Below are positions 22,788 through 54,534 of a stretch of 64,000 nucleotides of DNA, in pieces. The position numbers and the translations under genes were made by a program. How positions within the stretch are numbered: position 1 is the stretch's first letter; each line of letters begins with the position of its first letter. Origin of the DNA: Kumtagia ephedrae (GTDB lineage: Bacteria; Pseudomonadota; Alphaproteobacteria; Rhizobiales; Rhizobiaceae); assembly GCF_003012745.1 (NCBI RefSeq), contig NZ_PXYK01000016.1, positions 1 to 64,000 of the forward strand. The letters run 5' to 3'. The notes under the pieces are model-generated. The model ran no database searches and was not told the origin of the DNA. It saw only the letters and a list, made by a program, of their open reading frames with translations.

Positions 22788-23927
22788 CTATTCCTCGACA
22801 TAAGCCTTGCGCGTGCCGGCGCCGATCTGCGTCAGCAACACGTTGGGCGCGCAGCCCAGCTGCTCCGCCACCGTCTCGATCGGCTGGGCGGCATCGAGCA
22901 AGACCGCCCGCTGGCCGGCGAGCGGCATGCCGGCCGGCAGGTCGGTGAGGTCGAGCATGGTGAGGTTCATGGCGATGCCGCCGACCAGCGGAACCGTAAA
23001 GTCGCCCAGCCGCGCCGTGCCGGACTCGGCAAAACGCTGCGGCAGGCCGTTGGCGTAGCCGATCACCGCGGTGGCGATGCGCGAAGGCCGCGTCAGTTGC
23101 GTGACGCCGCGATAGCCGAGCCGTGCGCCGGCCGGATAGTCGGCGACCCGGATCAGCGGGGCGCTGAGCTCGTAGCAGGGCTTGAGCCCGTCCTGCCAGG
23201 CAGCCGATGTCTGCACGCCGTACAGCGCGCTGCCGACGCGGGCCATGTCGAAATGCCAGTCCTCGCCCATGTAGACGCCGGAGGAGGCGGCGAGGCTTAC
23301 CGGCGCTCGCGGCAGGCGCGCGATCCAGGCAAGCAGCCGGCGGCGCTGCTCGGCATTTCCGGGATCGCCCGGAAAATTGTAGGCGGCGAGCTGGGTGACC
23401 CAAAGGCGGATGTCCAGACCCTCCAGCATATCCGGCCGCCCGGCCAGCCAGGCGAGCTCGTCCTCGCCGAGACCGAGCCGGCCGAGACCGGTGTCGATCT
23501 GGATCGCCACGGCGAGCTTCTTCCCGGCGCGCACGGCGTGGCGCGCGCACTGCTCGACGTCCTCCATGCTGGCGAGCGCCGGCACCACGCCCGAAGCCTC
23601 GAAGTCGCGGACATGGTCGTTGCCGAGCCCCATCAGCGTGTAGGCGGTTGCTTCCGGCGCGATCGGCCGGAGGCGCACGGCCTCCTCCAGGTCGCTCGTC
23701 CAGAAAGCCCGGCAGCCCACCGCGGCGAGCGTTCGAACCACCGGCTCCAGCCCGGTGCCGTAGGCATCCGACTTGACGACGGCCGACAGCACCTGGCCGC
23801 GATAGCGGCGGCGCATCTCGAGATAGTTGGCGCCGATGGCCGCGAGATCGACGCGCAGCACCGGCGCGTTGTCCGGGAGCGATGTGCCCGCCTGCCGGCG
23901 CTTGGCGAGGGAGACCACGCCGGTCAT
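22788..23927 (-). CDS. alr: Alanine racemase
   Basis: A 379-residue PLP enzyme interconverting L- and D-alanine. The PLP lysine lies in LSAVVKSDAYGTG (about residue 53). The barrel motifs FDMARVGSALYGVQ and the catalytic Tyr segment ARLGYRGV (about 276) are present, followed by the C-terminal beta-domain (VPLVGGIAMNLTMLDLTDLP). GGAGG stands about five bases before the ATG, which overlaps the stop of the GNAT gene (ATGA). It is the last gene of a five-gene operon with transport and sensor genes, so it may serve a dedicated signal or nutrient role instead of cell-wall supply. Other amino acids could be substrates. Confidence 0.93.
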   Translation of the reverse strand: MTGVVSLAKRRQAGTSLPDNAPVLRVDLAAIGANYLEMRRRYRGQVLSAVVKSDAYGTGLEPVVRTLAAVGCRAFWTSDLEEAVRLRPIAPEATAYTLMGLGNDHVRDFEASGVVPALASMEDVEQCARHAVRAGKKLAVAIQIDTGLGRLGLGEDELAWLAGRPDMLEGLDIRLWVTQLAAYNFPGDPGNAEQRRRLLAWIARLPRAPVSLAASSGVYMGEDWHFDMARVGSALYGVQTSAAWQDGLKPCYELSAPLIRVADYPAGARLGYRGVTQLTRPSRIATAVIGYANGLPQRFAESGTARLGDFTVPLVGGIAMNLTMLDLTDLPAGMPLAGQRAVLLDAAQPIETVAEQLGCAPNVLLTQIGAGTRKAYVEE

Positions 23928-24601
23928 GCCGGCCTCCCGTAGAAGAGCTCGCGAGCGCCGTCGCCGCCGCGGCGCCAGCGCAGACCAGTCAAGCCGGCGT
24001 CCAGCAGTTCGCGCTGCCGTTGCGTGTCGCCCGCCGCGCACCATACGCCCTCGCCGGCGGGTGCCGCAGGCCTGCCCAGGTCGCGATGAAGCAGATAGCG
24101 CAGGTGGCCGCCATACTTCTCGAACAGCAGGCGCACGGAAAATCCGGCGTCGACCAGGTTAGCCCAGCTGCGCGCATTGCCGGGTGCCGCGGTGGCATAG
24201 AGATGGCCGATCCCGGCGCGGCGCGCCTGCTCGACGCGGATGTCGATCAGCGCGTCGTGGATGCCCGCTCCCCAGGCTTCGGGCAGCACCCCGGCGCCGG
24301 CCAGCTTGGCGAGGCTGTCGCCGGCGGAAAGACCGATCAGCAGCCGAGCATCCTCCGACGGCGGCAGCTCCGTCTGCAGGACGCCGTAACCTACCAATCT
24401 ACCGTCTTGGAAGAAGCCGGTGATGCGGCCGCCGCCTTCCAGGATGCCCCTGAAGAAATCGTGCGACTCCGGCTTGATCAGGTCGGGCCGGCCGACGGCG
24501 GCTGTCGCCGCGAGATGCAGCGCATAGACGTCGTCCAGGTCGGATGCCGAAAGCTCGGCATACCCCTCTGCTGCGGCCATTGCGGCCTTTGCCTCGACCA
24601 T
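23924..24601 (-). CDS. GNAT-family N-acetyltransferase
   Basis: A 225-residue acetyltransferase. The GNAT fold is visible in GRLVGYGVLQTELPPSEDAR, a degenerate acetyl-CoA loop VLPEAWGAGIHDALID (about 113-128) and GIGHLYATAAPGNARSWANL followed by GFSVRLLFEKYGG (about 140-173). The canonical Q/RxxGxG/A is reduced to AWGAGI. The Met at 24601 has a weak ribosome-binding site; Met at 24580 is an alternative. Overlapping alr by four bases and following the binding-protein gene by 26, it probably modifies an amino-acid-like compound handled by this locus. Confidence 0.8.
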   Translation of the reverse strand: MVEAKAAMAAAEGYAELSASDLDDVYALHLAATAAVGRPDLIKPESHDFFRGILEGGGRITGFFQDGRLVGYGVLQTELPPSEDARLLIGLSAGDSLAKLAGAGVLPEAWGAGIHDALIDIRVEQARRAGIGHLYATAAPGNARSWANLVDAGFSVRLLFEKYGGHLRYLLHRDLGRPAAPAGEGVWCAAGDTQRQRELLDAGLTGLRWRRGGDGARELFYGRPA

Positions 24602-24627
24602 GGAGGACGCCCCCGTCCAGAAAGCGG

Positions 24628-25635
24628 TTAGCCCGTCAGCACTTCCGCATAGTTCAGCATCTCGATCGGCGGATAGAGATCGAGCTTCTTCGCCACCGGC
24701 ATATTGATGATCAGCGAGAAGCGCTTCAGCGTTTCGATCGGGATCTGTTCGACCGGAACCTCCTTGCGCAGGATCTTTGCCGCCTTGGAGGCAGCGAGCT
24801 GTCCGACCGAATAATAGCGGCTGATCAGCGCCACCAGCGCGCCGCCCTGGCGGATCGCCAGCTCGGCGGCGCCGAAGGTCGGCAGGCGCGCCGCCATCGC
24901 CGCCGGCGTCACCCGGTCGTATTGCGTGCCGAGGAAGGTGTCGGGCAGCAGATACAGCCAATTGGCGCCGTCCCCGGCGATCTCGCCGACCAGCTCCTCG
25001 ATCCCGTCCGGCGACGGCCGCCCGTCGGCGCCCAGCCGGAACTGCCGCTCGACCAGCGAAAAGCCCATCGGCTCGCGCAGCGCCTGCAGCTCCCCGACGA
25101 TGGATAGCGAATTCTGCTCCGTCGAGGAGTAGAGCACGCCCAGCCGCTCGATCGGCCGGTAGGAATGCATCGCCCTGAGCTGGGTATCCGTCGGCACGAC
25201 ATGCACCGCACCGGTCAGGTTGCGCCCCGGGACGGCGCGGTCGGCCACCAGCTTGGCATTGAGCGGCGCGGCGACCAGCGCGAAGACGATCGGGATGTCG
25301 GTGATGAAGTTCTGCTTGTCCTCGGCGTCGTAGCGTCCGGCGATGCCGAGCGTCACCGGCGTGCCCCAAGTGTAGACCAGGTCTGGCTTCAGGTCGCGGA
25401 TCTCCTCGACGAAGCCGGAGAGTTTTGCCGCGCCGCGGTCGGCGTCGCGCTCGATGAACTCCACCGCGATGCCGTTGCTGGCAAGGTAGTCGTCGAAGCC
25501 GTCCTCGACCTCGGTGCGGCCGCGATAGGTGACACGGTAGATGCGGAACGGCTTGTCCTGCGCGGCGAATGCCGGCGCGACCATGCCGGCGATACCTGCC
25601 GCCGTGGCTCCCAGGAACGTCCGCCGTCGCATCAT
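24628..25635 (-). CDS. ABC transporter substrate-binding protein (PF04392 type)
   Basis: A 335-residue periplasmic binding protein with an Arg-rich, Tat-like signal start (MMRRRTFLGATAAGIAGMVA ending AFA). The fold is the two-lobe type of ABC_sub_bind proteins: DLKPDLVYTWGTPVTLGIAG near 83-101, IPIVFALVAAPLNAKLV near 118 and ALISRYYSVGQLAASKAAKI near 270. Family members bind amino acids or related ligands. No ABC permease or ATPase adjoins it. Instead the gene follows the sensor-MFS fusion after one base, so it may act as a soluble ligand sensor for those membrane proteins. Confidence 0.82.
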   Translation of the reverse strand: MMRRRTFLGATAAGIAGMVAPAFAAQDKPFRIYRVTYRGRTEVEDGFDDYLASNGIAVEFIERDADRGAAKLSGFVEEIRDLKPDLVYTWGTPVTLGIAGRYDAEDKQNFITDIPIVFALVAAPLNAKLVADRAVPGRNLTGAVHVVPTDTQLRAMHSYRPIERLGVLYSSTEQNSLSIVGELQALREPMGFSLVERQFRLGADGRPSPDGIEELVGEIAGDGANWLYLLPDTFLGTQYDRVTPAAMAARLPTFGAAELAIRQGGALVALISRYYSVGQLAASKAAKILRKEVPVEQIPIETLKRFSLIINMPVAKKLDLYPPIEMLNYAEVLTG

Positions 25636-25636
25636 C

Positions 25637-27622
25637 TCAACCCCCTGCCGGCAGTTCGAGTTTGGTCGTGCGCATCAGGCCGATGGTGGCCAGGAAGGTC
25701 AGCGCGCAAACCGCCATCGCAGCGCCGATGATCATGACCGTGGTCGAGAACCCGTAGGCGCCGAGCAGGACGCCGGCGACCAGGGGCCCAAGCGCATTGC
25801 CGGTGCGCTCGACCAGGCGGAATATGCCATAGATCGTGCTCTCGCTGATATCCCGCGGCAGGTCGCGGCCGAGCTCGCCGACGAGGCCGGAGAGCGGCGC
25901 GATGCTGATCGCCTGTCCGAGCCCGAGGCCAAGCAGCATGGCGGCGATCGGCAGCGTCTCGTCGCCGCCGAACAGGACGACGAAGGCGCTGAGCCCGGCG
26001 ATCAGCCCGCCGGCCGCGACGAACTGCGCCCGCATGTTCCAGCGGTCGGCAAGCGAGGCGAAGAACGGGACCAGCAGCACCATGGCGATCGGATAGATCA
26101 TCAGCATCCGCCCGGTCGTCGCCTGGGTGGCGCCGAGCGCCTCCATCTGCAGCGGCACCAGGAAGAAGCAGAAGGCGACCAGGATGATCTTCGCCGGCAT
26201 GGCGCACAGGAAGAACAACGCCGCCAGCGGCAGCGACGAGACGATCCGGCCGAAATCGCGCCAGCGGATCGCCGGCCCCTGCATCCTGCGGGCGGAGGAC
26301 GCCGGCATGCACAGGAAGGCGAGCAGCAGGCTGCAGGCGCAGAACAGGCCGGCCACCAGGAAGGTGCCGGGAATGCCGATGCGGTCGGCCAGGATGCCGC
26401 CGATCGGCGGCCCGCACAGGCCGGCGACGAGGATGGCGCTGATGAACATCGCCATGCCGCTCGAGCGCTGCCGCACGTCGGTGGCGTCGATGACGAAGCC
26501 CTGGGCGCTGACGAACACCAGCGCGAAGCCGAGCGCCGAGACGACGCGGGCGAGCGTGAGGCCGATGAGGTCGCCGACCACCGCCGAGGCGCAATAACCG
26601 GCGAGCCCGAGCGCCGCCCCCGCCATCAGGCAGTGGCGGCGGCCGACACGCTCGGTGAGCGCGCCGAGCAGCGGCTGCGCCAGCGCCACCACGATGAGGA
26701 AGGCCATCATCGGCAGGCTGACCACCAGCTCCGGCGACAGGCCCGGCACCGGCGTGGCGAGCGTCTTGATGTAGACGGGCAGGAACGGCCGGGTCAGCTC
26801 CTCGGCCAGCATGAACACGAACAGCGGGGCGCGCACCGCCACCACCTGCGCCGGCGCGGCGATCACGCCCTCGCCGAGGCCGAAGCGGCCGCGCAGAAGG
26901 TCGAGTGCCTGCTGCGCGACCTGGTCGCTGCGTTCGTTGACACGCCTGCGCAGCGCCGCATAGGTCTCGTGCAGCCGGCCGAGCCGCTCGTCGAGGGCGC
27001 GCGCGAAGCCGCCGAACTCGCTGCCGGCCTCCACGGCCGGATGCAGGCGCAGGTCGCCCTTGCGGATCGTCTTCAGCCGGCTCTCTATGCCTTCGATGGC
27101 GCCATAGAGCCCGGCCCCGAAGCCGACATAGACGAGCTCGAGGGCGATCACGGCGGTGACGAACATGACGATGGCGAGATCGATCCACAGTGTCGAGACC
27201 ACCTGCCGGGCATAGGCCGGGTCGAGGCCGACCGCGAGCACCTGCGAGCCGCCGCCGCCGATCGCCATGGTGACCGTCGGCACCTCGGTAACGGCCGCCG
27301 TGCCGTTACCCTGCACGGCCTGCGTCCCGTAGAGCACGGCGCCGTCCGCGCCGCGGACCGCGATGAAGGAGAGGTCCGGGTTGGCTTCCAGGATGCGCTG
27401 CAGATAACCGTCGAGGCCCTGCAGGCGATCGAGCGGGATGCCGAGCTCCAGCGCCCGACCGATCAGCGACGCGGTCGAACCGGCTACGGTGAGCGCCTTG
27501 CGCTTGAGCTCCGGCTCGAGGATCACCTCGGCGCGGTTCACGGTCTGGAAGGACAGCACCACCAGCGCGGCGACCAGCACCGCAAGCACCGCCGCCGAAA
27601 GTCGGACGCGGAGGCTGCTCAT
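25637..27622 (-). CDS. Extracytoplasmic sensor domain fused to an MFS transporter
   Basis: A 661-residue fusion. Residues 1-25 form a membrane segment, and 26-148 an extracytoplasmic sensor-like domain containing ALELGIPLDRLQGLDGYLQR and [13 protein letters not shown] second membrane segment (about 149-175) and a HAMP-like stretch (IESRLKTIRKGDLRLHPAVE) follow. From about 250 a 12-helix MFS domain runs to the end, with the loop motif GALTERVGRRH (about 327-337) and its repeat FFASLADRWNMR. MFS proteins rarely carry a receptor half, so transport may be gated by a ligand, or the MFS fold may itself sense. It overlaps the upstream sensor gene by ATGA. Confidence 0.85.
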   Translation of the reverse strand: MSSLRVRLSAAVLAVLVAALVVLSFQTVNRAEVILEPELKRKALTVAGSTASLIGRALELGIPLDRLQGLDGYLQRILEANPDLSFIAVRGADGAVLYGTQAVQGNGTAAVTEVPTVTMAIGGGGSQVLAVGLDPAYARQVVSTLWIDLAIVMFVTAVIALELVYVGFGAGLYGAIEGIESRLKTIRKGDLRLHPAVEAGSEFGGFARALDERLGRLHETYAALRRRVNERSDQVAQQALDLLRGRFGLGEGVIAAPAQVVAVRAPLFVFMLAEELTRPFLPVYIKTLATPVPGLSPELVVSLPMMAFLIVVALAQPLLGALTERVGRRHCLMAGAALGLAGYCASAVVGDLIGLTLARVVSALGFALVFVSAQGFVIDATDVRQRSSGMAMFISAILVAGLCGPPIGGILADRIGIPGTFLVAGLFCACSLLLAFLCMPASSARRMQGPAIRWRDFGRIVSSLPLAALFFLCAMPAKIILVAFCFFLVPLQMEALGATQATTGRMLMIYPIAMVLLVPFFASLADRWNMRAQFVAAGGLIAGLSAFVVLFGGDETLPIAAMLLGLGLGQAISIAPLSGLVGELGRDLPRDISESTIYGIFRLVERTGNALGPLVAGVLLGAYGFSTTVMIIGAAMAVCALTFLATIGLMRTTKLELPAGG

Positions 27623-28260
27623 GGCCGTGCGTCCAGGCCGAGACGCTCCATCTCGGTTGCGGCATGCGCGATCGGGTCGTCGCCGGCCCCCGTGGCCGAG
27701 CGCCGGGCGCGCCGGTGCAGGCCGGTGAGAAGCAGCAGGCAGGCGAGGCTGCCGGCGATCACCGCGCCGATGCCGGCGGGGATCGCGCCGTTGAGGATGT
27801 CGCGGCGCAGCCCGTCGATCGTGCCGTCGATCGTGCCGCGGTCGAGGCGCACCAGCACGGCGCCGACGGGGGCGCCGAAATCGTTGACGAGCCGGCGCTC
27901 GTCCCGGAACGCGCCTGGATCGTCGCCGGCACGGTCAGGCACACCGACCCGACCGGCATCGCTGCTGAAGACCACGGTGCCGTCTTCCGAGAGCACGTCG
28001 ATGGAGAGCGTCAGCGGGTCGCTCGCCGCCTGCCGCGCCAACAGGCCGGGCAGCGTCGTCTGCTCGGTCAGCCGGATGCCGAGCGCATGCGCGGTGGAGA
28101 CGTCGGTGCCTATGCTTTCGGCGACCATCGCCATGCGCGAGCGGATGAGGTCGAGATAGGCGGAGCGCACGCCGCTGAAATTCATGTAGGCGGCCAGGAA
28201 CATGGCGAAGCCAATGATCACGGCGAAAACCGGTAAGGTGCGGATGGCTAGCCGAAACAT
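27619..28260 (-). CDS. Small membrane-anchored sensor protein
   Basis: A 213-residue protein with an N-terminal membrane segment (VFAVIIGFAMFLAAYM), an extracytoplasmic domain of about 120 residues and a second membrane segment (AGIGAVIAGSLACLLLLTGL, about 163-182), followed by a 30-residue cytoplasmic tail. The segment HALGIRLTEQTTLPGLLARQ followed by VLSEDGTVVFSSD matches the sensor motif of the other membrane proteins in this locus. There is no kinase, cyclase or HAMP output of usable length. It is the first gene of the minus-strand operon, reading into the sensor-MFS fusion. Confidence 0.75.
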   Translation of the reverse strand: MFRLAIRTLPVFAVIIGFAMFLAAYMNFSGVRSAYLDLIRSRMAMVAESIGTDVSTAHALGIRLTEQTTLPGLLARQAASDPLTLSIDVLSEDGTVVFSSDAGRVGVPDRAGDDPGAFRDERRLVNDFGAPVGAVLVRLDRGTIDGTIDGLRRDILNGAIPAGIGAVIAGSLACLLLLTGLHRRARRSATGAGDDPIAHAATEMERLGLDARP

Positions 28261-28405
28261 CGCAGGATAATTGAAGCAGACATGTCATTGAAGCACGGCG
28301 AGATTAGCAGAGTGTTATGCTAACCGGTAGGTTTTGCAGGATGACAGGGATGAATCCGTCGAATACCGTTGTCACGGTCTGCTCCGATTCACTAGAAAAT
28401 CCGCC
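28261..28405. promoter_or_regulatory. Divergent promoter region of the sensor/transport island
   Basis: These 145 bases separate the two divergent operons and are less GC-rich than the genes. ATTGAAGCA occurs twice (28270-28278 and 28287-28295), 17 bases apart. The repeat could be an operator, but no promoter boxes were fixed with confidence. Confidence 0.4.
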
Positions 28406-29185
28406 ATGGCGCCAAGTTCGCGGATCATCCTGGCCATTCTCGGCGCGACCTGCGCCGGGCTGGCGCTATGCGCGGCACTGGTCTTCGGCAGCCTCGACCG
28501 CCTCAGCCTGCGCACGGCCGAGGCCAATGTCGACTTCCTGCTGACGCAGCTCGGCGACACCGTCGAGGCCAATGTCGGCCTCGGCCTGCCGCTTGCCGAC
28601 ATCCGCGTCGTGCAGGATCTGATCGAGCGGGCCAAGGTGGCCGACGCGCAGGTGCTCGCCGTCGAGGTGTTCTCGCCGGACGGCGTGTCGCTGTTCAACA
28701 CCGACCGCGGCAGCATCGGCGAGCCCATCCCGCCGGTCTGGCAGAACGCCGTGCGCTTCCGGGTCGCGAACGAGCGCTGGCGCGTCGAGGAGCCGGGCAG
28801 CATCGTCGTCGGCCAGGTCATCCGCAACGATTTCGGCGAGCCGGTGGGTTATCTGGCCGTGACGGTCTCGGGCGAGGCGCGCGGCGAGCATGCCGAATCG
28901 GTGCTGGCCGGCCTCGCCAGGCAGGCGGCGGTGGTGGTGCCTCTCGCCCTGCTCGCCGTGCTTGCCGTGGCGATGGCGCTCGCCCGCTACAGCGGGCGCG
29001 GCTTCGCCCGCCTGGCCGAACGGCTCGGCGACGCCCAGCAGCCGCCGAACCGCGCCTTGCCCGCCGATCTCGCCACGGAAGCCGACCGTGTCCTGGCGTC
29101 GGTCCGCCAGGCGACCGACGATTTCGATCGCGCCACAGCCGACGTGCTGAAGGTCGACGAAAGCGAAGAGCGCCATGCCGCCTGA
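28406..29185 (+). CDS. Small membrane-anchored sensor protein
   Basis: A 259-residue counterpart of the 213-residue protein on the other strand. It has an N-terminal membrane segment (IILAILGATCAGLALCAALV), an extracytoplasmic domain with VGLGLPLADIRVVQDLIERA and VEVFSPDGVSLFNTDRG, and a second membrane segment near 190-210 (VVVPLALLAVLAVAMALA). A cytoplasmic HAMP-like and helical tail (RLAERLGDAQ...DDFDRATADVLKVDE) ends the protein. The ATG at 28406 is chosen for its position at the membrane segment, but lacks a clear Shine-Dalgarno. It overlaps the next gene by 11 bases. Confidence 0.72.
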   Translation: MAPSSRIILAILGATCAGLALCAALVFGSLDRLSLRTAEANVDFLLTQLGDTVEANVGLGLPLADIRVVQDLIERAKVADAQVLAVEVFSPDGVSLFNTDRGSIGEPIPPVWQNAVRFRVANERWRVEEPGSIVVGQVIRNDFGEPVGYLAVTVSGEARGEHAESVLAGLARQAAVVVPLALLAVLAVAMALARYSGRGFARLAERLGDAQQPPNRALPADLATEADRVLASVRQATDDFDRATADVLKVDESEERHAA

Positions 29186-31031
29186 CGCCGCAGTACACGA
29201 ACCGCATGTCTCGGATCCGATGCCGTCCTGGCTGCCGGTGCTGCTGATAGGCATGGTCGTGGCCCTCGTGGTCGGCCTCGGCGGATATCTGTTCCTGCAG
29301 GCGGGCCTTCATCGCAGCGCGCCGACCTTGGAGCAGGCGACCCGCACCGGCGCCGCGGCTGTCGGCCAGGCCGTCGCCGGGCAGTTCGCGCATGCTCTGG
29401 CGCTCGGCATTCCGCTTGCGGAGCTGCCCGGCGTCGAGCCCTACCTGCGGCGCATCGCCGAAAACTCGCCGCAGGTGGAGGGCATGGCGTTGCTCGACGC
29501 CGACGGCCGGACGATCTCCTCGACCATGCAGGGGACGGAAGGCACGCGCTTTCCCATTTCGGCGGGCGGCACGCGGGCGACGCTCGTGGTCGCGCCGGAG
29601 ACGCCGCTGATCGATCGTGCGATGCGGCGGGTATGGATCGCGCTCGCCGCCACCGCGCTGTTGGCCGGAGCCGTCGCCGGCGGGCTCGTCGCCTTCGTCA
29701 CCCGGCTGCACCAGGAGCCGGCGCAGCGCCGGTTTCTGGCCGACATGCGCGGCATCGCCGACGGCATCTTCGCGGTGCAGCCGTCTGGCGTCTATCGCGG
29801 ACCGCTGGCGGATGCCGCCCGCGCGCTTGCCCAGTGCGTCGAGGGCGTCCGGGCGGCCCGGCGCAACCTGGTCGAGGCCGCCGCCACCATCCGCGCCATC
29901 GACTTCGACGGCAGCCTCGGCCGCCGCGTCGACGTGATCCTGCAGCCGATCGACCGCCGCTACGCCTTCCCGGAGACGGACGACGACGCGTCGGCGCGCA
30001 CGCAAGGCAGCAGCGTGGCCTGGCGCCTGGCGCTGCTGTTCGGCCTCTATGCGGCCGCCTTCCCCTATGTGGCCAACTTCGCCATCGACCGCGAGCCGGA
30101 AGGCATCGCCGCCGCCTGGGCGCCGGTCCTGCCGCTCCTGGCCGAGCTCGCCGCCGCCTGCCTCGGCGCGCTGGCCGGCGCCACCCGGGCCGGACGCAAT
30201 GGCGGTGCGCTTCTCGCGTTCGCGCTGCTCTTCGGCGTCTGCGTCGGCGCCACCTACTGGTGCCGCGACTACGGCGTCTTCATCGCGCTGCGCTGCGGCG
30301 CCGGCCTTTCGGCCGGCTTCGTCGCCGCCGCGCTTCTCTGTCGCTACCGGCTCGACATCCGGCCGCGCGAGCTTGCGACGCTGCTGATCTTCGCCGCGCT
30401 GTTCGCCGCGCCGCTGCTCGCCGGCCTCTATGGCGAGGCGATCGGCCGACGCTCGGGCTTCCTGCTGCTCGGCATCGTGACCGTCGTCGCCGCGCCATTC
30501 ATCGCGGTCGGGATGGGTGCATCGGAAAACGGCGCGACCGCCCGTGCCGCATCGCGCTTCGGCCGCGGCGACGTCCTGCTGGGCATGGCCGTCCTGCCGG
30601 CAGCCGCGATGATCCTGGTCGAACTGCCGATCGGCGTCGGTTTCGACGACTATCTGAGCGGCGGCGGCGCCATTGCGCTGCTCGCCGCCGCTGCCCTGGC
30701 CGCTCCGGCATTGTCACCGCTTGCCTGCGCGGCGGCGATGCTGGCCGCGGCTGCCGTGCTCCACCTGCCCGTGCCTTACCCGGGCGTTTCCGTCTTCGCA
30801 GCCTGTGCACTGCTGGGGCTCGCGGCAGGCGGGATGTTCAAGCAAATCGTCGACGCTGCGAACCGTCCCTGGATCGCGATTGCCGTGGGCGTTGCCGGCG
30901 GCCTGGCCCTCATCGGCGCATTGCGCCATGCGGAGCTGCCTTTTGCCTACCTCGCCGCCGCGGCGGCGCTGGTCGTCATCGCCGTCAATCTCGCCGGCCG
31001 CCACCGGCCGGCCACGGCCGGTGCCGCCTGA
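29175..31031 (+). CDS. Sensor domain fused to a degenerate MFS-like multi-helix module
   Basis: A 618-residue membrane protein built like the 661-residue fusion on the other strand. A membrane segment (about 19-40) and an extracytoplasmic domain with ALALGIPLAELPGVEPYLRR and LLDADGRTISST come first, then a second membrane segment (about 155-178) and a linker. About twelve hydrophobic segments follow from residue 276. The MFS loop signature GxxxDRxGRR is not recognisable; GEAIGRRSGFLL is the nearest trace. It may be a transport-dead receptor paralogue. The TGATG overlap with the phosphatase gene implies translational coupling. Confidence 0.75.
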   Translation: MPPDAAVHEPHVSDPMPSWLPVLLIGMVVALVVGLGGYLFLQAGLHRSAPTLEQATRTGAAAVGQAVAGQFAHALALGIPLAELPGVEPYLRRIAENSPQVEGMALLDADGRTISSTMQGTEGTRFPISAGGTRATLVVAPETPLIDRAMRRVWIALAATALLAGAVAGGLVAFVTRLHQEPAQRRFLADMRGIADGIFAVQPSGVYRGPLADAARALAQCVEGVRAARRNLVEAAATIRAIDFDGSLGRRVDVILQPIDRRYAFPETDDDASARTQGSSVAWRLALLFGLYAAAFPYVANFAIDREPEGIAAAWAPVLPLLAELAAACLGALAGATRAGRNGGALLAFALLFGVCVGATYWCRDYGVFIALRCGAGLSAGFVAAALLCRYRLDIRPRELATLLIFAALFAAPLLAGLYGEAIGRRSGFLLLGIVTVVAAPFIAVGMGASENGATARAASRFGRGDVLLGMAVLPAAAMILVELPIGVGFDDYLSGGGAIALLAAAALAAPALSPLACAAAMLAAAAVLHLPVPYPGVSVFAACALLGLAAGGMFKQIVDAANRPWIAIAVGVAGGLALIGALRHAELPFAYLAAAAALVVIAVNLAGRHRPATAGAA

Positions 31032-33193
31032 TGCTGCTCAGCACCCGCATCGCCCTGTTCGTGTCGCTGGCCTTCGTCGTCGCCTTCGGCCTGCTGGCGT
31101 TCATCGGACAGCAGCGCGAGACCATCGCCGCCCGCCCGTACACGCGCATCGCCATCGCCGGCCAGGAGGCGCTGTGGCGCGAGATCCTCGTCACCGAAAC
31201 GCGCCGACTGGTCGAGCTGCGGCAGCAGTTCGTCGGTGATCCGGCCATCACCGATGCGATGCACAAGGGCGATCTCCCGGCGCTGCGGCGCATGGCGCTC
31301 GGCCGCACCCAGGGCTGGCTGACCTCGGGCGAGCTGTCCGACCTTCAGATCCTCGATCGGCAGGGTCAGATCGTGTTCGCGAGCTCCGTGCAGGCGGAGC
31401 CGCCCAGGCTGCTCGACATCAGCACCATCGGCGCCATCCTGGATGGCGCCGAGCCGAGCGGCATCCGCCAGGTGTCGTCCGAGAACTTCCGCATCGTCGC
31501 GGCACGGGCCTATCAGAACTGGGACGGCGAGACGACGGTGCTGGCGCTCGGCGCGGCGGTCGAGCGGCCGCTGCGCAGCTTCGCCGACGCCATGGGAGCG
31601 GAAAGCTATCTTCTCAGCACTCGCGGCCGGCTGGTCGAGGGGACGGAACCGCAGCTCTGGCAAAACCTCGCCCTGACATTCCCGCAGCGTGTCGGCTCCG
31701 TCCGGCAGGCGGCACTCGACGACCGCCTCTATGCCGTCACCGCCATCCCGCTGGCAGACCTGTCGGCCGGCTCGGCCGGCCTGCTGGTCGCCGCCCAGGA
31801 CGCGACCGAGAGCCTGCGCGCGCTCGACCGCCTGACGACGCTGACGCTGGCCGTCATGGCCGCCGTCGCGGTGCTCACGGTCGGCGGGCTCTATCTCTAT
31901 CTGCGCCACAGCTTCAACCCGCTGCGCCGCGCCGTGGCGACGCTGGCCGCGCTCGCCCGCGGCGATACCTCGGTGGCGCTCACCAGCCGCAGCAACGACG
32001 AGATCGGCCAGATCGCCGCGGCGATCACCGAGCTGCGCCGCAATCTCGTGGCCCTCAACGACTCCCGCCGGCAGCGCGAGCTGCAGCGGCGGCGCCAGGA
32101 GCGTTTCGTGCGCCGGCAGATGGAATCGCTGGCCGAGACGCTGGAGCCTGGCGCCCGCGACGAAGTGCTGAGCGACCTCGGCCGTATCGTTGCGGCAACC
32201 AGGGGCGCCGCCGAACCGACCGAGGCGGCCGACACCATGTCGCGGCTGATCCGCGAGGACGACCAACTCGGCCCGATCGCCGCCGTGCTGCAGCAGATGT
32301 CGGGCCGCGTCGTCGAGCAGCACCGCCGGCTGTCGGAACTGGTGGCGCGGCTGCGCGAGGCGCTGGTGCGCGAGACGCAGCTCGCCACCTTGCAGCAGGA
32401 GCTCGCCATCGCCCGCGACCTGCAGCGCTCGGTGCTGCCGGCGGATTTCCCGCCGCGCCCGACCTTCGCGGTGAAGGGGCTGATGCAGTCGGCGAACGAG
32501 GTCGGCGGCGATTTCTACGACTTCTTCGAGCGCGGCGACGGTCGTCTGGTCTTCGTCATCGCCGACGTCTCCGGCAAGGGCGTGCCGGCTGCCTTCTTCA
32601 TGGCGATCTCGCGCACCCTGCTGAAGGCGATCGCGCTGTTCGAGAACGACCCGGCCGTCTGCATCCGCCAGCTCAACGACCTGCTGGCGGTCGACAACGA
32701 CCAGATGATGTTCGTGACGCTGGTGTTCGGCGTGTTCGATCCGAAAAGCGGCCGCGTCGACTTCGTCAATGCCGGCCATGCCGCGCCGGTGCGGATCGCC
32801 GCCGACGGAACGGTCGAGCCGCTTCCGGCCGACAGCGACGTCGCCGTCGCCGTGCTGGAATCCGTCGAGTTCACCAGCCGTTCGATCCAGCTCGCCCCCG
32901 GCGAGATGCTGGTGCTCTATACCGACGGCGTCACCGAGGCCTTCAATGCCGAGGGTGAGGCGTTCGGCGAGACGGGGCTGCTGCACAGCCTCGAAAAGCT
33001 GGACGGCCCGGCGGAGCCCGACGCGGTGGCGCAAGGCGTGCTGGCGGCGGTCAAGGCATTCGAGGCCGGCGGCAGCCAGTCGGACGACATCACCCTTCTG
33101 GTGGTCGGCTACACCGGCGCGCCACAGCAGGCGCAGCCTCAGCGCAGGAAACGCCTCGCCGCCGTCTCCGGCGACCCGGTCAGCGCGCCGTGA
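31031..33193 (+). CDS. Membrane sensor with SpoIIE/RsbU-type PP2C phosphatase domain
   Basis: A 720-residue receptor phosphatase. A membrane segment lies at about 7-24, an extracytoplasmic sensor region at 25-270 (LQILDRQGQIVFASS, then a second sub-domain) and a second membrane segment at about 275-297. HAMP follows (LRRAVATLAALARGDTSVAL), then coiled coil and the PP2C domain from about 455. Metal-binding residues are visible in NEVGGDFYDFF, VIADVSGKGVPAAFFMA, VNAGH, LYTDGVTEA and SQSDDITLLVV. Such enzymes dephosphorylate STAS-domain antagonists in partner switching. No STAS gene is in this operon; the nearest lies at 52.5 kb. Confidence 0.93.
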   Translation: MLLSTRIALFVSLAFVVAFGLLAFIGQQRETIAARPYTRIAIAGQEALWREILVTETRRLVELRQQFVGDPAITDAMHKGDLPALRRMALGRTQGWLTSGELSDLQILDRQGQIVFASSVQAEPPRLLDISTIGAILDGAEPSGIRQVSSENFRIVAARAYQNWDGETTVLALGAAVERPLRSFADAMGAESYLLSTRGRLVEGTEPQLWQNLALTFPQRVGSVRQAALDDRLYAVTAIPLADLSAGSAGLLVAAQDATESLRALDRLTTLTLAVMAAVAVLTVGGLYLYLRHSFNPLRRAVATLAALARGDTSVALTSRSNDEIGQIAAAITELRRNLVALNDSRRQRELQRRRQERFVRRQMESLAETLEPGARDEVLSDLGRIVAATRGAAEPTEAADTMSRLIREDDQLGPIAAVLQQMSGRVVEQHRRLSELVARLREALVRETQLATLQQELAIARDLQRSVLPADFPPRPTFAVKGLMQSANEVGGDFYDFFERGDGRLVFVIADVSGKGVPAAFFMAISRTLLKAIALFENDPAVCIRQLNDLLAVDNDQMMFVTLVFGVFDPKSGRVDFVNAGHAAPVRIAADGTVEPLPADSDVAVAVLESVEFTSRSIQLAPGEMLVLYTDGVTEAFNAEGEAFGETGLLHSLEKLDGPAEPDAVAQGVLAAVKAFEAGGSQSDDITLLVVGYTGAPQQAQPQRRKRLAAVSGDPVSAP

Positions 33194-33857
33194 GCTGGCG
33201 CTTGCCGCGCTCCTCGAGGTAGCTCACCAGCCGCACCAGCGGCCACAGGAAGGCGAGATAGATCAGCGCCGCGCCGATCAGCGGCGACGGATTGGCCATC
33301 AGCGCCTGCGCGTCGGTCGCCTGCTTCAGCAGATCCGGCATGGCGACCACCGAGGCGAGCGCCGTGTCCTTGTAGATCGACACGCAATTGCTGGTGAGCG
33401 GCGGCACCACGGTGCGCAGCGCCTGCGGCAGGATCACCTTGCGCATGGCGGTCCAGAACGGCAGGCCGAGCGCCGAGGCCGCCTCGAACTGGCCTTTCGG
33501 CACGCTCTCGATGCCGGCCCGGCACACTTCGGCGGTGAAGGCGGCGAGCACCAGCGACAGCGCCAGCGTCGCCGAGGTGAAGGCGGAGAGGCGGATGCCG
33601 ACGAAGGGCAGGGCGTAGTAGATCAGGATCAGCACCACCAGGATCGGCATGGCCCGGAATATGTCGATGAAGCCGACCGCGGCGAGGCGCAGCGGCTTCG
33701 GCGCGTAGAGGCGCATCAGGCACATCAGCAGCCCGCCTATGCCGCCGAAGACGATGGCGGCGCAGCCGAGCAGCAGCGTGTTGACGAGGCCACGCATCAG
33801 CATCGGGAAAGAGCGGACGAGCACGTCCCAGTTGAAGAAGGTGGCGAACAGGTCCAT
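33180..33857 (-). CDS. Polar amino acid ABC transporter permease (HisM/GlnP type)
   Basis: A 225-residue inner-membrane permease. The family signature for contact with the ATPase is present as EAASALGLPFWTAMRKVILP (about 144-163). Five membrane segments and DIFRAMPILVVLILIYY are typical. Only one permease gene is present and no ATPase gene adjoins it, so the ATPase must come from elsewhere. It follows its binding-protein gene across a 156-base gap with two hairpins. Its 3' end overlaps the convergent phosphatase gene by 14 bases. Confidence 0.9.
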   Translation of the reverse strand: MDLFATFFNWDVLVRSFPMLMRGLVNTLLLGCAAIVFGGIGGLLMCLMRLYAPKPLRLAAVGFIDIFRAMPILVVLILIYYALPFVGIRLSAFTSATLALSLVLAAFTAEVCRAGIESVPKGQFEAASALGLPFWTAMRKVILPQALRTVVPPLTSNCVSIYKDTALASVVAMPDLLKQATDAQALMANPSPLIGAALIYLAFLWPLVRLVSYLEERGKRQLTAR

Positions 33858-33924
33858 CGCGCATGTCCCCGGGACTGAAGTAAGCCGAGCGACGGCCGCT
33901 GCTGGCGCGCCACGCGGGCATCAT

Positions 33925-33980
33925 CGGCAGCCTTGGGGCTGCCGGCAAGAGATTGGCGCCCGGATCGATGTCCGGGCGCC
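33925..33980 (-). promoter_or_regulatory. Two tandem stem-loops between binding-protein and permease genes
   Basis: CGGCAGCC-TTGG-GGCTGCCG (33925-33944) and GGCGCCCGGA-TCGATG-TCCGGGCGCC (33955-33980) are perfect hairpins. They lie after the binding-protein stop and before the permease start. Such structures commonly protect the upstream message or limit read-through, raising binding protein over permease. Confidence 0.6.
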
Positions 33981-34013
33981 GAACGGTCGGTTCGTTCGAG
34001 GAGAGGCGGTCGC

Positions 34014-34814
34014 CTACTGCGCCTGCGGGATCGGCAGGACCTTGTTGATCGAGGCGTCGGCGCCCGCCTCGGCGCCCAGCCATTTCTTGTGCAGGGCGGC
34101 CATGGTGCCGTCCTTCTTGATCTCGTCGATGGCGGTGTTGACGCGCTCCAGCAGCGGCGAGCCCTTCTTCATCATGATGGCGAACTTGTCGCCGGTCGGG
34201 ATCGGCTCGACCACCTTCATGCCTTGCATCTTGGTGAAGGCGAACTGGAAGCCGGCGATGTCGCCGATCGCCCCTTCGAGACGTCCGGACTGCACGTCGA
34301 GCAGCAGCTCCTGCTGGGTGTTGTAGCCGCGATACTCGGCGATGCCGTATTTCTCGGTGTTCTCCTTGATCCAGGCCTCGCCGACCGAGGCGGAGATGGC
34401 GCCGATCGTCTTGCCCTTCATGTCGGCCAGCGTCTTCAGCGCCGTGTCCGACTTGGCGATCAGCGAGATGTCGCTGTCGTAGTACCCTTGCGTGAAGGAC
34501 TGGTTCTGCAGCCGGTCGTTGGTGATGCTGATCGAAGAGATCGCCATGTCGATGCGGCCGGACGAGGTCGCCGCGAACAGCGCCTGGAAGCCGAGATCCT
34601 GGAACTCCACCTCGGCGCCGATGCGCTTGCCGATCTCCTTGACCAGGTCGACCTCGAAACCCTCGAATTCGCCGGTCTCCAGCTTGTTCTCCCATGGTGG
34701 GTTGGCCGGATAGGCGCCGACGACCAGCGTCTCGGCATGCGCGGCCGATGTCAGCCCCAGCCCGAAAGCGAGCGCGGCGAGCGCCCCGAACAGTCCACGA
34801 CGATCGAGTATCAT
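34014..34814 (-). CDS. Amino acid ABC transporter substrate-binding protein
   Basis: A 266-residue periplasmic protein of the polar-amino-acid family (SBP_bac_3). A signal peptide ending SAAHA precedes VVGAYPANPPWENKLETGEF, followed by GFEVDLVKEIGKRIG and the ligand-loop segment GRIDMAISSISITNDR. GGGGA stands eight bases before the ATG. Upstream on the same strand is an aminotransferase gene, so the imported compound probably carries an amino group that the aminotransferase removes. The ligand cannot be read from sequence. Confidence 0.92.
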   Translation of the reverse strand: MILDRRGLFGALAALAFGLGLTSAAHAETLVVGAYPANPPWENKLETGEFEGFEVDLVKEIGKRIGAEVEFQDLGFQALFAATSSGRIDMAISSISITNDRLQNQSFTQGYYDSDISLIAKSDTALKTLADMKGKTIGAISASVGEAWIKENTEKYGIAEYRGYNTQQELLLDVQSGRLEGAIGDIAGFQFAFTKMQGMKVVEPIPTGDKFAIMMKKGSPLLERVNTAIDEIKKDGTMAALHKKWLGAEAGADASINKVLPIPQAQ

Positions 34815-34884
34815 TGCTTTGTTCCCCAATTTTGCCGCCGCCCATGGGCCGCGGAGGTGAGCCCGGCAGGACGCGGGCCCGTCG

Positions 34885-36099: not shown

Positions 36100-36191
36100 G
36101 CTGGTGGTGCCCTCCCATAGCGCCGGAGCGCTGCTCGTCATGGATTGCGTGCGCTGCCGATCGACGCCGCGCAGGTCAAAGACAATCATAT

Positions 36192-51988: not shown

Positions 51989-52048
51989 CCGGTTGAGGCG
52001 GTAGGGGGCCGCCTCGGGGAGTGGGCCGGCCAGCGAATCGGGGACCGG

Positions 52049-52504
52049 ATGGCGCTGGATGACGATATTCGCATCCTGTCCGGCGTGAGGCTGTTCGACG
52101 GCTTCACGGCCGAGCAACTGCGCCTGCTCGCCTTCGGCGCCGAGCAGATATCGCTGCCCGCCCACCGCCGGCTGTTCCGCGAGGAGGACGAAGCGGACGC
52201 CGCCTATGTAGTGGTGGCCGGCGAGATCAGCCTGTTCCGCGAGGAGGACGACGAGCGCCGGCCGGTGGCCGTCGCCGGGCCCGGCGCGATGGTGGGCGAG
52301 TTGGCGCTGATCGCCGACACGCGCCGCCTCACCAGCGCCGAGGCACGCAGCAGCGCCGACCTGCTGCGGCTCAGCCGAAAGATGTTCCGGCGCATCCTCG
52401 AGGAATATCCGGATACGGCGGTGATCCTCTACAAGCGCATCCACGCCGATTTCATGGCGCTGGTCGAGCGCATCGAGCAGATGGCGCCGCGGTTCGAGGG
52501 TTAG
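52049..52504 (+). CDS. Cyclic-nucleotide-binding domain protein
   Basis: A 151-residue single-domain protein of the Crp/PKA regulatory fold. It has strands of the beta-roll (AEQISLPAHRRLFREEDEAD, AYVVVAGEISLFREEDDERR) and the phosphate-binding region PGAMVGELALIADTRRLTSA (about 77-96), with Glu before Leu-Ala and Arg in the expected places. No HTH follows, so it is not a transcription factor by itself. It lies 60 bases after cenR on the same strand and converges on an operon with a nucleotide cyclase, a possible source of its ligand. Confidence 0.88.
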   Translation: MALDDDIRILSGVRLFDGFTAEQLRLLAFGAEQISLPAHRRLFREEDEADAAYVVVAGEISLFREEDDERRPVAVAGPGAMVGELALIADTRRLTSAEARSSADLLRLSRKMFRRILEEYPDTAVILYKRIHADFMALVERIEQMAPRFEG

Positions 52505-52520: not shown

Positions 52521-52859
52521 TCATCCTGTCCCGCCCGCCGCAAGCGCCGCTGCCCGATCCGCGTGGATCTGGAACAGTTTTGCAAAGCCGCTGATCTTGA
52601 ACACCTCGTCGACCGCCTTGCTCATGCCCGCCAGCCGGAGCGGAACGCCGGTCGCCTTGCTGCGCCGCGCCGCCAAGAGCAGCACCCTGAGCCCGGCGCT
52701 GGAGATGTAGGTGAGCGCGGCGAAATCGACGAGCACCGGCCGGGGCTGGTCGAACAGCGGCAGCAGCGCCTCCTCCACCTCGCGCGCCGAATTGCTGTCG
52801 ATGCGGCCGACCGGCGTGAGCACCGCGACCCCGTTTTCCGTCTCGTTCCGGATCTCCAC
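52521..52859 (-). CDS. STAS-domain anti-sigma factor antagonist
   Basis: A 112-residue RsbV/SpoIIAA-like protein. The STAS fold is seen in VAVLTPVGRIDSNSAREVEE and the phosphorylatable Ser lies in ALTYISSAGLRVLLLAAR (about 47-64). The GTG at 52859 has AGGAG six bases upstream and gives the usual length; a GTG at 52889 overlapping the previous stop is the alternative. In its dephosphorylated form it should bind and neutralise the anti-sigma kinase encoded just upstream. A SpoIIE-type phosphatase lies at 31-33 kb. Confidence 0.88.
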   Translation of the reverse strand: MEIRNETENGVAVLTPVGRIDSNSAREVEEALLPLFDQPRPVLVDFAALTYISSAGLRVLLLAARRSKATGVPLRLAGMSKAVDEVFKISGFAKLFQIHADRAAALAAGGTG

Positions 52860-52885
52860 GTCTGTCTCCTGTCGGTTCGCCGCCG

Positions 52886-53308
52886 TCACGCCCCGGCACG
52901 CTTGATGAGCGTCAGCAAATTATGGCCGTCAATGCGGCTGTAGCGGATGTCGTCCATCATGGCGCGCACGATATGGATACCGAGCCCGCCGACGGCGCGC
53001 TCGTCGATGTCGGCGTCGAGGTCGGGCTCGGCCGCCGCGGTCGGATCGAAGGCGCGCGCGTCGTCGCGCAGCCTTACCGTGAGGCCGCCGCTGGCGACAC
53101 TGAGGTCGACCTGGATCTCATGTCTCCCCGCGTCTTCATAGCCGTAGCTGATCGTGTTGGTCAGCAATTCGTCGAGCGACAGGTTGACCGCATGGGCCAG
53201 CTCGTCGCCGAGCCCGTTGTCGGCGCAGAACGCATCGATGATCGGCGCGATCCGGCTGATCTCGGCGAGATCGTTGTGGATGGTCAGGTTGAGGACGGGA
53301 CCGGACAT
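52886..53308 (-). CDS. RsbW-like anti-sigma regulatory kinase (HATPase_c)
   Basis: A 140-residue serine-protein kinase of the GHKL fold. The N-box is LSLDELLTNTISYGYED (about 44-60), G1 is LRDDARAFDP (about 80-89) and G2 is AVGGLGIHIVRAMMDD (about 104-119). Such proteins phosphorylate STAS antagonists and hold a sigma factor or other target. It starts 11 bases after the cyclase gene and precedes the STAS gene, forming a three-gene operon. No sigma-factor gene is near, so the final target is unknown. Confidence 0.9.
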   Translation of the reverse strand: MSGPVLNLTIHNDLAEISRIAPIIDAFCADNGLGDELAHAVNLSLDELLTNTISYGYEDAGRHEIQVDLSVASGGLTVRLRDDARAFDPTAAAEPDLDADIDERAVGGLGIHIVRAMMDDIRYSRIDGHNLLTLIKRAGA

Positions 53309-53319
53309 CGCTGGGATTT

Positions 53320-54534
53320 CTACGCGGAGGCGGCGGGATCGGCAACGGGCAGGATTCGGTAGACGGCCTCGCGGCCGAACTTCTTGGGCAGGTCGAGCAG
53401 GCCGACATAGTCGGACCGGTAGGGCGGCCGGTACGGCTCCCCGAGCAGCCGCGCCTCGTGCTGCAGCGCGTCCATCTCGGCCTGCAGCAGCGCCACGAAA
53501 TGCTGCGACGCGTAGACCTCGCCCGCCGAGCCGACCGCCTCGATGCGCGCCGCCCGGTTGACGTGATGGCCGTAGATCATGCTGCGCCCGGTGAGCGGAT
53601 GCAGCCCGACATAGACCGGGCCGGCATGCAGCGCCACGCGGAAGCGCGGCCGGTTCGCCAGCCCGAAAACGTTTGGCTCGGTCACGCGGATGGTTTCCAT
53701 CAGGGTCGCGGCATAGCCGGCGAGGTCGAGAGCCGTCTCGGCCGCGGCGTGGACGGCGTCGCCCCAGGTGTTGATCAGGATCGGCGCCGTGGCCCGCTGC
53801 TCGACGGTCTGCTGAACCTCGGCCAGAAAATCCCACAGGAACGGGATCTCGTCGTCGCGGATCGACGAATAGGTCGCCATGTCGGCGAAGAAGATGGCAC
53901 GCACCACCAGGGTGCTGGTGCCCATCGCCAGCGCATTCAGGTCGGCCGCGATGTCGGCATTCCGGATTCCGGGCTGCGGATTGAAGTGCTCGTCGAGATC
54001 GTCGAGGTCGATCAGCGACAGATGCTCGAGCTCCGGCCACTGGTCCATGAAGTCGGCCGGGCTGCCGGGCTCGGCGGGCGCGGCCGGGCTCCAGACGGCG
54101 AGCAGCCGGGCGTGACCGCCGATCCGTCCGGCATGGACCCGCGCCATGCCTTGCAGCATCTGGTTGTTGAAGCGCAACAGCGTCTCGTCGCCGGGCAGCC
54201 GCTCGTCGCAGCTGACCTCGACCCGCGCGGCGGCGCCGCGCACCGCCTCGAAGCGGGCCTCCCACTCGGCGCCGGCCGGAGCGACATACTGGCCGACGAA
54301 GTCCTCGACCGGACATGGCAGGAACAGGTTGAGCTCGCCCGAGCGCGCCAGCAGTTCCTCGGCGAACAGCAGCTCGGGGCCTGCCGTTCCCGACGTGTAG
54401 CCGATGCCTGCCTGGTGGCGGTCCAACTCGCCGCGAATCTCCTGGCGCAACGCGGCCACCAGTTCCGCCGGACAGGCCTGCCCGCCGAGGCGATGGCCGG
54501 CGCAGAGCATGATGGTGGTTCCGGCGCTTGCCAT
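53320..54534 (-). CDS. SLOG-like domain fused to class III adenylate/guanylate cyclase
   Basis: A 404-residue protein. Residues 1-150 resemble a SLOG/Rossmann-like nucleotide-sensor region (LCAGHRLGG, IGYTSGTAGPELLFAEELLA, LNLFLPCPVEDFV). Residues 210-380 form a class III cyclase domain. The metal Asp lies in IFFADMATYS, the second Asp in INTWGDAVHAA, with VALHAGPVYVG and the transition-state NxxxR in HHVNRAARIEAV. The gene is first in an operon with an anti-sigma kinase and a STAS protein. It suggests that cyclic-nucleotide output is coupled to partner switching. Met at 54510 is an alternative start. Confidence 0.82.
   Translation of the reverse strand: MASAGTTIMLCAGHRLGGQACPAELVAALRQEIRGELDRHQAGIGYTSGTAGPELLFAEELLARSGELNLFLPCPVEDFVGQYVAPAGAEWEARFEAVRGAAARVEVSCDERLPGDETLLRFNNQMLQGMARVHAGRIGGHARLLAVWSPAAPAEPGSPADFMDQWPELEHLSLIDLDDLDEHFNPQPGIRNADIAADLNALAMGTSTLVVRAIFFADMATYSSIRDDEIPFLWDFLAEVQQTVEQRATAPILINTWGDAVHAAAETALDLAGYAATLMETIRVTEPNVFGLANRPRFRVALHAGPVYVGLHPLTGRSMIYGHHVNRAARIEAVGSAGEVYASQHFVALLQAEMDALQHEARLLGEPYRPPYRSDYVGLLDLPKKFGREAVYRILPVADPAASA

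Follow-up and report, generated by a model that had tools for sequence, protein, structure and literature searches.

The 64,000-nucleotide (nt) stretch of the Kumtagia ephedrae contig NZ_PXYK01000016.1 (assembly GCF_003012745.1), hereafter called the window, contains at positions 22788-33193 an island of eight genes for membrane sensors, proteins of the major facilitator superfamily (MFS), a periplasmic solute-binding protein (SBP), two enzymes, and a SpoIIE-type phosphatase. On balance, we read the island as a receptor and transporter for an amino-acid-type ligand that drives a partner switch acting on a class III nucleotide cyclase, the candidate switch and cyclase genes being located in the same window at 52521-54534. 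The island genes, with the evidence for each assignment, are as follows.

22788..23927, minus strand: Alr, an alanine-racemase-family protein of 379 amino acids (Ala_racemase_N/C)
23924..24601, minus strand: GNAT, a GNAT-family N-acyltransferase of 225 amino acids (Acetyltransf_1)
24628..25635, minus strand: SBP, a PF04392 periplasmic binding protein of 335 amino acids (ABC_sub_bind)
25637..27622, minus strand: MFSA, a Cache sensor fused to an MFS transporter with 12 transmembrane helices, 661 amino acids (MFS_1, alignment with six relatives)
27619..28260, minus strand: sA, a small membrane sensor of 213 amino acids with a single-Cache-like periplasmic domain and without a kinase or output domain (open reading frame (ORF), AlphaFold2, Foldseek)
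28406..29185, plus strand: sB, a small membrane sensor paralogous to sA (ORF, sA-family hidden Markov model (HMM))
29175..31031, plus strand: MFSB, a Cache sensor with a degenerate MFS fold, paralogous to MFSA (AlphaFold2, Foldseek)
31031..33193, plus strand: SpoIIE, a membrane receptor of 720 amino acids with HAMP and PP2C-type SpoIIE phosphatase domains (Pfam)

Frames and spacing were verified for all eight ORFs, which confirms the two divergent, tightly overlapping arms described in the original prediction. On the minus strand, sA overlaps MFSA by 4 nt, MFSA and SBP are separated by 1 nt, SBP and GNAT by 26 nt, and GNAT overlaps Alr by 4 nt; on the plus strand, the overlaps are 11 nt between sB and MFSB (for which 29220 is an alternative start) and 1 nt between MFSB and SpoIIE. 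The arms are 145 nt apart, and the two divergent promoters stay putative, because a scan of 28150-28500 for sigma-70-type sites found no promoter-like site. The Pfam families named for the other five proteins all score above cut-off, and no Pfam or NCBIfam family does so in sA, sB, or MFSB. Since sA and sB, as well as MFSA and MFSB, cross-match as paralogs in related loci, the two arms resemble duplicates of a single sensor/sensor-MFS pair, each followed by a different tail.

The island was compared with 80 loci, the best 80 of 108 relatives retrieved by similarity from named genome contigs, with genera represented repeatedly; genes were called with a purpose-made codon model and labeled by HMMs built iteratively on the same loci. 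The core, consisting of the small Cache sensor, the Cache-MFS protein, and the PF04392 binding protein, is found again among members of the Alpha-, Beta-, and Gammaproteobacteria. SBP lies at most two genes from MFSA in 77/80 loci (the misses are L049, L062, and L085), and the small sensor does so in 75/80. SpoIIE, MFSB, MFSA, SBP, GNAT, and Alr are all present in 14 of the 80 loci, among them the betaproteobacterial metagenome-assembled genomes L078 and L102, in both of which the genes all run in one direction. All eight genes occur in order in a genome of the same genus (G001, 55-81% identity) and in one of another family (G028, 39-68%); a full-length match was found only in G000, G001, and G028 among the 41 relatives searched. 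Because the same gene order recurs in other genera and families, the grouping is more than chance, and the claim that these genes form a conserved unit withstood a search for missing co-conservation. In an even draw of Alphaproteobacteria, MFSA was found in 19/289 genomes; when the window's own genome is left aside, 17 of the remaining 18 also have SBP (the exception being a 3.5-kb contig) and 12 have SpoIIE. Across the phylum, 9/398 genomes match, three of them over the MFS part only. The distribution is wide but patchy.

On the sensory side, the AlphaFold2 model of sA (predicted local distance difference test score, pLDDT, 91.7) consists of a single Cache-like domain flanked by two transmembrane helices, and its top Foldseek matches are the sensor domains of WalK, KinD, DctB, and CitA. 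The sB protein scores 243 bits with the sA-family HMM, which was built from both sA and sB. MFSA matches MFS_1 over residues 268-583 (E 5.5e-32, Pfam), and a strict pattern for MFS motif A is found in 56/86 MFSA proteins, the window's own being in the set. The MFSB model (pLDDT 80.9) combines the same kind of Cache domain as in sA with 12 transmembrane helices, and is matched by NorA, VMAT, and MdfA in Foldseek. None of the 14 long MFSB copies has motif A, and 16 further copies, of 255-278 amino acids, retain the sensor part only; of the 34 genes labeled MFSB, these counts exclude L051, L052, and L063 (400-403 amino acids, separate MFS genes beyond SpoIIE) and the L047 copy, cut by a contig end. 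Because motif A is often kept in MFSA and absent from MFSB, whose MFS part is often gone altogether, MFSA seems to be a transporter, and MFSB a receptor that has given up transport.

The SBP belongs to ABC_sub_bind (E 1.7e-26, Pfam), with a weak match to a twin-arginine-translocation-like leader, below cut-off; its relatives in PDB (3lkv, 6hni, and 3lft) are annotated as solute-binding proteins. Its neighbors in the window are MFSA and GNAT, and Pfam finds no ATP-binding-cassette gene in the island; an ABC importer of the PF04392 type would have permease and ATPase genes together with the binding protein. Its being encoded with a Cache-type receptor in the 77 loci, together with the predicted Cache fold, is consistent with a receptor activated by a binding protein.

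The output side starts from SpoIIE, which matches PF07228 with E 3.3e-50 and has a HAMP domain above cut-off (Pfam). Simple patterns for the catalytic motifs are found in 37-38 of 41 SpoIIE relatives, including the window protein, which carries the sole SpoIIE domain above cut-off in the genome (the second match, at 22.3 bits, is below it). Reporting through this phosphatase was proposed in the original prediction, which overlooked the STAS, RsbW-like ATPase, and class III cyclase genes of the same window:

52049..52504, plus strand: cyclic-nucleotide-binding protein beside the STAS operon, a possible reader (cNMP_binding, 67.5 bits)
52521..52889, minus strand: STAS-only protein of the anti-anti-sigma type, the probable SpoIIE target (STAS, 67.4 bits)
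52886..53308, minus strand: RsbW-like HATPase_c_2 protein, the probable STAS kinase (PF13581, 87.7 bits)
53320..54534, minus strand: class III nucleotide cyclase, the probable output (Guanylate_cyc, 31.9 bits, cut-off 21.9)

The STAS protein scores 74.6 bits with TIGR00377 (cut-off 53.45) and contains the sequence YISSAGLR; the cut-off of PF13581 is 27.4, and the RsbW equivalog models themselves are below their cut-offs. The three proteins are 79% (STAS), 68% (HATPase), and 73% (cyclase) identical to their counterparts in Mesorhizobium sp. LHD-90 (L040), where the STAS gene sits beside Alr. In eight loci (L039-L046) STAS directly follows Alr and is itself followed by HATPase and cyclase. The genome has two STAS proteins, the window one among them, and the window copy is its best HATPase_c_2 match, at 87.3 bits, the next being 38.

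Full-length SpoIIE is present in 38/80 loci, a count that leaves aside L059, where a kinase-like protein gives a 32-bit match only. STAS is found in 30 of these 38 versus 3 of the 42 others, and those three (L047, L056, and L101) are contigs cut near the expected place of SpoIIE. HATPase, fused or free, is present in 32/38 SpoIIE loci, and L041 has a gap where a HATPase call would be expected; L142 and L143 appear, by their equal lengths, to duplicate the contigs L046 and L082. In addition, natural fusions join sA to MFSA (L078, L094, L102, and L157), a Cache-HAMP part of the MFSA/MFSB type to SpoIIE (L155), SpoIIE to HATPase (seven formyltransferase-group loci, L066, L088, L090, L095, L103, L109, and L118, with Pfam run on L090), and HATPase to the cyclase (5/10 cyclase genes). 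Read together, the fusions give a candidate chain from the sensor pair through SpoIIE and HATPase to the cyclase. By linkage and fusions, signaling from SpoIIE onto the STAS protein is well supported, in line with the proposed reporting route. Three members of a partner switch are represented, namely a SpoIIE-type phosphatase, a STAS antagonist, and an RsbW-like HATPase kinase, and the cyclase, which adjoins the kinase gene and is fused to it in 5/10 cases, is the candidate target. When cyclases were aligned through 3et6, the Asp positions, which we take to bind metal, were kept in 10/10, and the Asn-Arg pair, presumably stabilizing the transition state, in 9/10. The residue that sets substrate specificity is Lys or Glu in adenylate and guanylate cyclases.

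Several observations weigh against this scheme. The STAS operon is not adjacent to SpoIIE, lying about 19 kb away, and the genome contains thirteen HATPase_c_2 matches, six of them at or over the cut-off. No STAS gene was found within the fetched DNA of 8/38 SpoIIE loci, and a simple pattern for the Ser-Ala/Gly-x-Leu-Arg type motif matched only 21/38 STAS genes. The L046 cyclase lacks the Asn, and the specificity position of these cyclases holds Asn or another residue in place of Lys or Glu. The island is also patchy: G002 and G003, two genomes from the genus of the window, lack it and gave only generic MFS matches.

Other genes accompany the core in some of the loci. In Xanthobacter/Azorhizobium-type loci (L051-L063, L065, L078, L081, L101, and others), a Na/Pi-cotransporter-like protein (PF02690 in L054) takes the place of the cyclase between HATPase and STAS. 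In Azospirillum-type loci (L064, L067, L070-L077, L108, L110, and L114), two genes are divergent from the core, one for a response regulator with a winged-helix tail and one for another helix-turn-helix-like protein, which suggests a transcriptional output in place of SpoIIE. All seven loci with the SpoIIE-HATPase fusion (L066, L088, L090, L095, L103, L109, and L118) have, divergent from the core, a gene that we take, from its sequence, to be MurI-like (glutamate racemase).

The enzymes encoded beside the binding protein bear on the nature of the ligand. In the window, GNAT matches Acetyltransf_1 weakly (24.3 bits, cut-off 20.7) and Alr is below the TIGR00492 cut-off (149.7 versus 168); a second Alr-family protein, 33% identical, is encoded on contig C13 of the same genome. 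For 99 SBP genes located near an MFSA gene, the gene directly following SBP was GNAT in 50 cases, VgrG in 12, formyltransferase in 7, TssA in 4, another module gene in 6 (sA twice; MFSB, SpoIIE, sB, and MFSA once each), unlabeled in 11, and missing in 9. Four of the unlabeled genes were scanned, and proved to encode GNAT in L145 and L149 and a ketopantoate-hydroxymethyltransferase-like protein in L147 and L148. In the Azospirillum type, GNAT is followed by an ATP-grasp protein whose best relative in PDB is the L-amino-acid ligase 30vh (E 1.9e-52). Single loci have GCS2 (L157), two D-Ala-D-Ala-ligase-like genes (L155), or an HMGL-like gene (L158) near the core; a scan of the neighbors L157 6816-7583 and L113 4458-5687 gave no Pfam family. 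Thus the enzyme slot varies by lineage, being occupied by GNAT with or without Alr, GNAT with the ligase-like protein, formyltransferase, or the ketopantoate-hydroxymethyltransferase-like protein.

Because amino-acid-type enzymes replace one another beside SBP, a ligand of amino-acid type is the more likely one, and to this extent the proposed amino-acid-like ligand stands. Its narrower form, a D-amino acid or an N-acetyl derivative, stays conjectural. Alr, called in 14/80 loci versus 44/80 for GNAT, is dispensable, and D-alanine as the specific ligand is unsupported, since Alr is missing from most loci.

The rarity of Alr could also mean that Alr and GNAT are passengers and that only the sensors, MFS proteins, SBP, and SpoIIE belong together, and the type VI loci described below, except those of the Azospirillum type, indeed have none of the scored enzymes. 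We find this improbable: the window's Alr and GNAT genes share 4 nt, GNAT is next to SBP in half of the cases counted, and where GNAT is missing the slot is often taken by another enzyme, such as formyltransferase in 7. Another role for the enzymes would be to process nutrients. The core would then be an SBP-dependent MFS importer of amino-acid-type compounds, with Alr and GNAT acting on the import and SpoIIE merely reporting supply, as might be expected from the constancy of SBP as the partner of MFSA (77/80), the motif A kept in 56/86 MFSA proteins, and the PF04392 relatives listed in PDB as solute-binding proteins. The interchangeable enzymes, however, include bond-forming, biosynthetic types (the L-amino-acid-ligase-like ATP-grasp protein, formyltransferase, and the ketopantoate-hydroxymethyltransferase-like protein), and 20 loci with the core beside type VI genes contain none of the four scored enzyme families, which makes such an importer rather unlikely. 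An autoinducer role, in which the ligand would be a product of the operon itself, is plausible. Candidate enzyme, transporter, and receptor genes share one operon; the interchanging enzymes are the main support for an operon-made ligand of amino-acid type, and fall short of proof.

A link to type VI secretion, also missed by the original prediction, was observed in other lineages. At least three type VI genes are present on the fetched stretch in 25/80 loci. In 20 of these, VgrG, PAAR, TssA, Hcp, or sheath genes are found right beside the core, and in five loci of the Azospirillum type the type VI genes lie some kb upstream. In L034, Pfam confirmed VgrG, PAAR, ImpA_N, Hcp, and VipB. SpoIIE is missing from the fetched DNA of all 25; in the other sample, L148 and L157 carry SpoIIE together with Hcp and VgrG. 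Type III-like neighbors are SseC in L079, CesT in L083, FliP, Bac_export_2, and Secretin in L102, and FliP and Bac_export_2 in L151, the latter two families being common to flagella. For islands of the window type, no link to secretion was found. Within the 289 alphaproteobacterial genomes, VipB is present in 7/19 with MFSA versus 45/270 without it (Fisher p 0.056; p 0.10 without the window's own genome). The K. ephedrae genome carries a single VipB gene, located on a different contig, the island-free G002 and G003 have one each, and the island-bearing G028 has none. A type VI output in this genome was therefore rejected as unsupported, since VipB does not track the island and the co-occurrence is not significant. 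The single VipB gene (G000:C19:73831-74739) lies about 18 kb from the sub-threshold SpoIIE-domain match at C19:92637-92864, perhaps a phosphatase of a type VI cluster.

As type VI clusters are tools of competition, their place beside the core may recall a locus that produces and senses an amino-acid-derived antimetabolite, made by the enzymes, exported by MFSA, and monitored by the receptor, which would adjust production or competition. The ligase relative is distantly similar to the dapdiamide A synthase DdaF (193 bits, far under the cut-off of 840), and MFSA matches drug-efflux MFS models, all below cut-off. One or two enzymes are, however, little for an antibiotic pathway, no immunity gene was recognized at the locus, and we know of no such antimetabolite for these loci, so that we hold this explanation to be highly unlikely.

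The binding proteins of these lineages differ at the Asp of the DP motif, which is replaced by Ala or Ser in 25/25 proteins of the cyclase and Na/Pi groups and by Gln in 7/8 of the formyltransferase group, and is kept in 21/21 of the type VI group and 17/19 of the ligase group; the Asp of the 3lkv DYY motif is likewise replaced. The idea that these pocket changes point to a ligand whose amino group is blocked was dropped, since shared ancestry confounds it.

A mobile or viral origin of the island was rejected, as no relative of P0005 was found in phage records, none was confirmed in viral contigs, and no tRNA was found in the window; PHROGs gave three matches, all to families of unknown function; the SpoIIE protein accounts for two and the MFS region for one. 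A role in anti-phage defense was likewise rejected, with no PADLOC match for the six island proteins, cyclase, or HATPase scanned, and so was a Pycsar label for the cyclic-nucleotide-binding protein, which matches Pycsar/TIR models weakly, probably through its cNMP domain. Its place is not conserved: the cNMP HMM labels no gene in the other labeled loci, and the pair that it forms at 51305-52504 with an OmpR-type response regulator, convergent with the STAS operon (Pfam), is not found at this place in them. Downstream of the island, 33180-36189 contains ORFs that we take to encode an amino-acid ABC permease with a binding protein and a class I aminotransferase; they are convergent with SpoIIE and overlap its end by 14 nt, and the neighbors in L040 and L039 differ. 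At 20491-21052, two small genes presumably form a BrnT/BrnA-type toxin-antitoxin pair.

In agreement with the original prediction, searches of the open-access literature aimed at this combination or at parts of it found no description, one elsewhere being possible. Partner switching of the Rsb/SpoIIA type is exemplified by RsbU-RsbV-RsbW. As far as the excerpts of PMC12826045 describe such systems, they share with the locus the SpoIIE phosphatase, STAS antagonist, and HATPase_c_2 kinase, whereas here no sigma factor is encoded beside the locus and a cyclase stands in that place. In SiaABCD of Pseudomonas aeruginosa, according to the excerpts of PMC7647112 and PMC8457831, a diguanylate cyclase is controlled by a phosphatase of the PP2C type in the membrane, together with a kinase and an anti-sigma-antagonist-like protein that is phosphorylated. 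This system, as described there, resembles the locus in its phosphatase, kinase, antagonist, and cyclase, the last being the candidate target in the locus, and the island SpoIIE scores 59.5 bits with the NCBIfam SiaA model, below the cut-off of 700. It differs in that the cyclase of the locus is of class III, the kinase is of the RsbW type and fused to the cyclase in relatives, and the switch is preceded by two sensor/MFS pairs with a binding protein and by enzymes. The transporter-receptor kinases of the SLC5/STAC type (CbrA and CrbS) also join a transporter domain to a signaling module, but the locus has MFS in place of SLC5, Cache in place of STAC, a binding protein, and no histidine kinase; for P0005 and P0008, Pfam gave MFS_1 only, with neither a kinase nor a STAC domain. 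LuxP-LuxQ is a receptor system activated by a binding protein encoded beside the membrane receptor. The same gene arrangement is found in BctC-BctE, as outlined in the excerpts of PMC9602780; unlike both, the locus has a receptor with an MFS domain, the island lacks a histidine kinase, and docking is our proposal. We judge the signaling side of the locus to be a form of partner switching, to which a new front end and, as the probable output, a cyclase have been joined, and the front end, SBP with the Cache-MFS pair, matches no described kind found in the open-access literature.

We propose the following scheme. It builds on gene content, conservation, fusions, and predicted folds, whereas the transport direction, the ligand, docking, the phosphorylation chemistry, the sign of the output, and the cyclase product are inferred. 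SBP would capture a small amino-acid-type ligand in the periplasm and meet the Cache domains of the sensor-transporter pair sA/MFSA, with MFSA carrying this ligand, or one related to it, through the membrane. The sB/MFSB pair would be a non-transporting receptor working with SpoIIE, which, either activated or inhibited, would dephosphorylate the STAS protein encoded at 52521-52889. The latter would sequester or release the RsbW-like kinase (52886-53308), which in turn would control the class III cyclase (53320-54534), whatever the sign of this output. GNAT and Alr may make or modify the ligand. Tentatively, the core can be viewed as a new family of chemical communication systems, with a lineage-specific synthase for an amino-acid-type signal, export by MFSA, readback through SBP and Cache domains, and either the switch with its cyclase or secretion as the output. 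This is the boldest reading that the evidence allows.

If the proposed scheme is true, it would represent a widespread, so far undescribed connection between partner switching and a binding protein paired with an MFS protein, in which a cyclase output replaces the sigma factor or diguanylate cyclase. With amino-acid-type enzymes exchanged at a single position, gene content would be a guide to the signal molecules, and the gene set is compact enough for testing in a laboratory strain. In other lineages, the core inside type VI clusters may be a missing signal input for contact-dependent competition.

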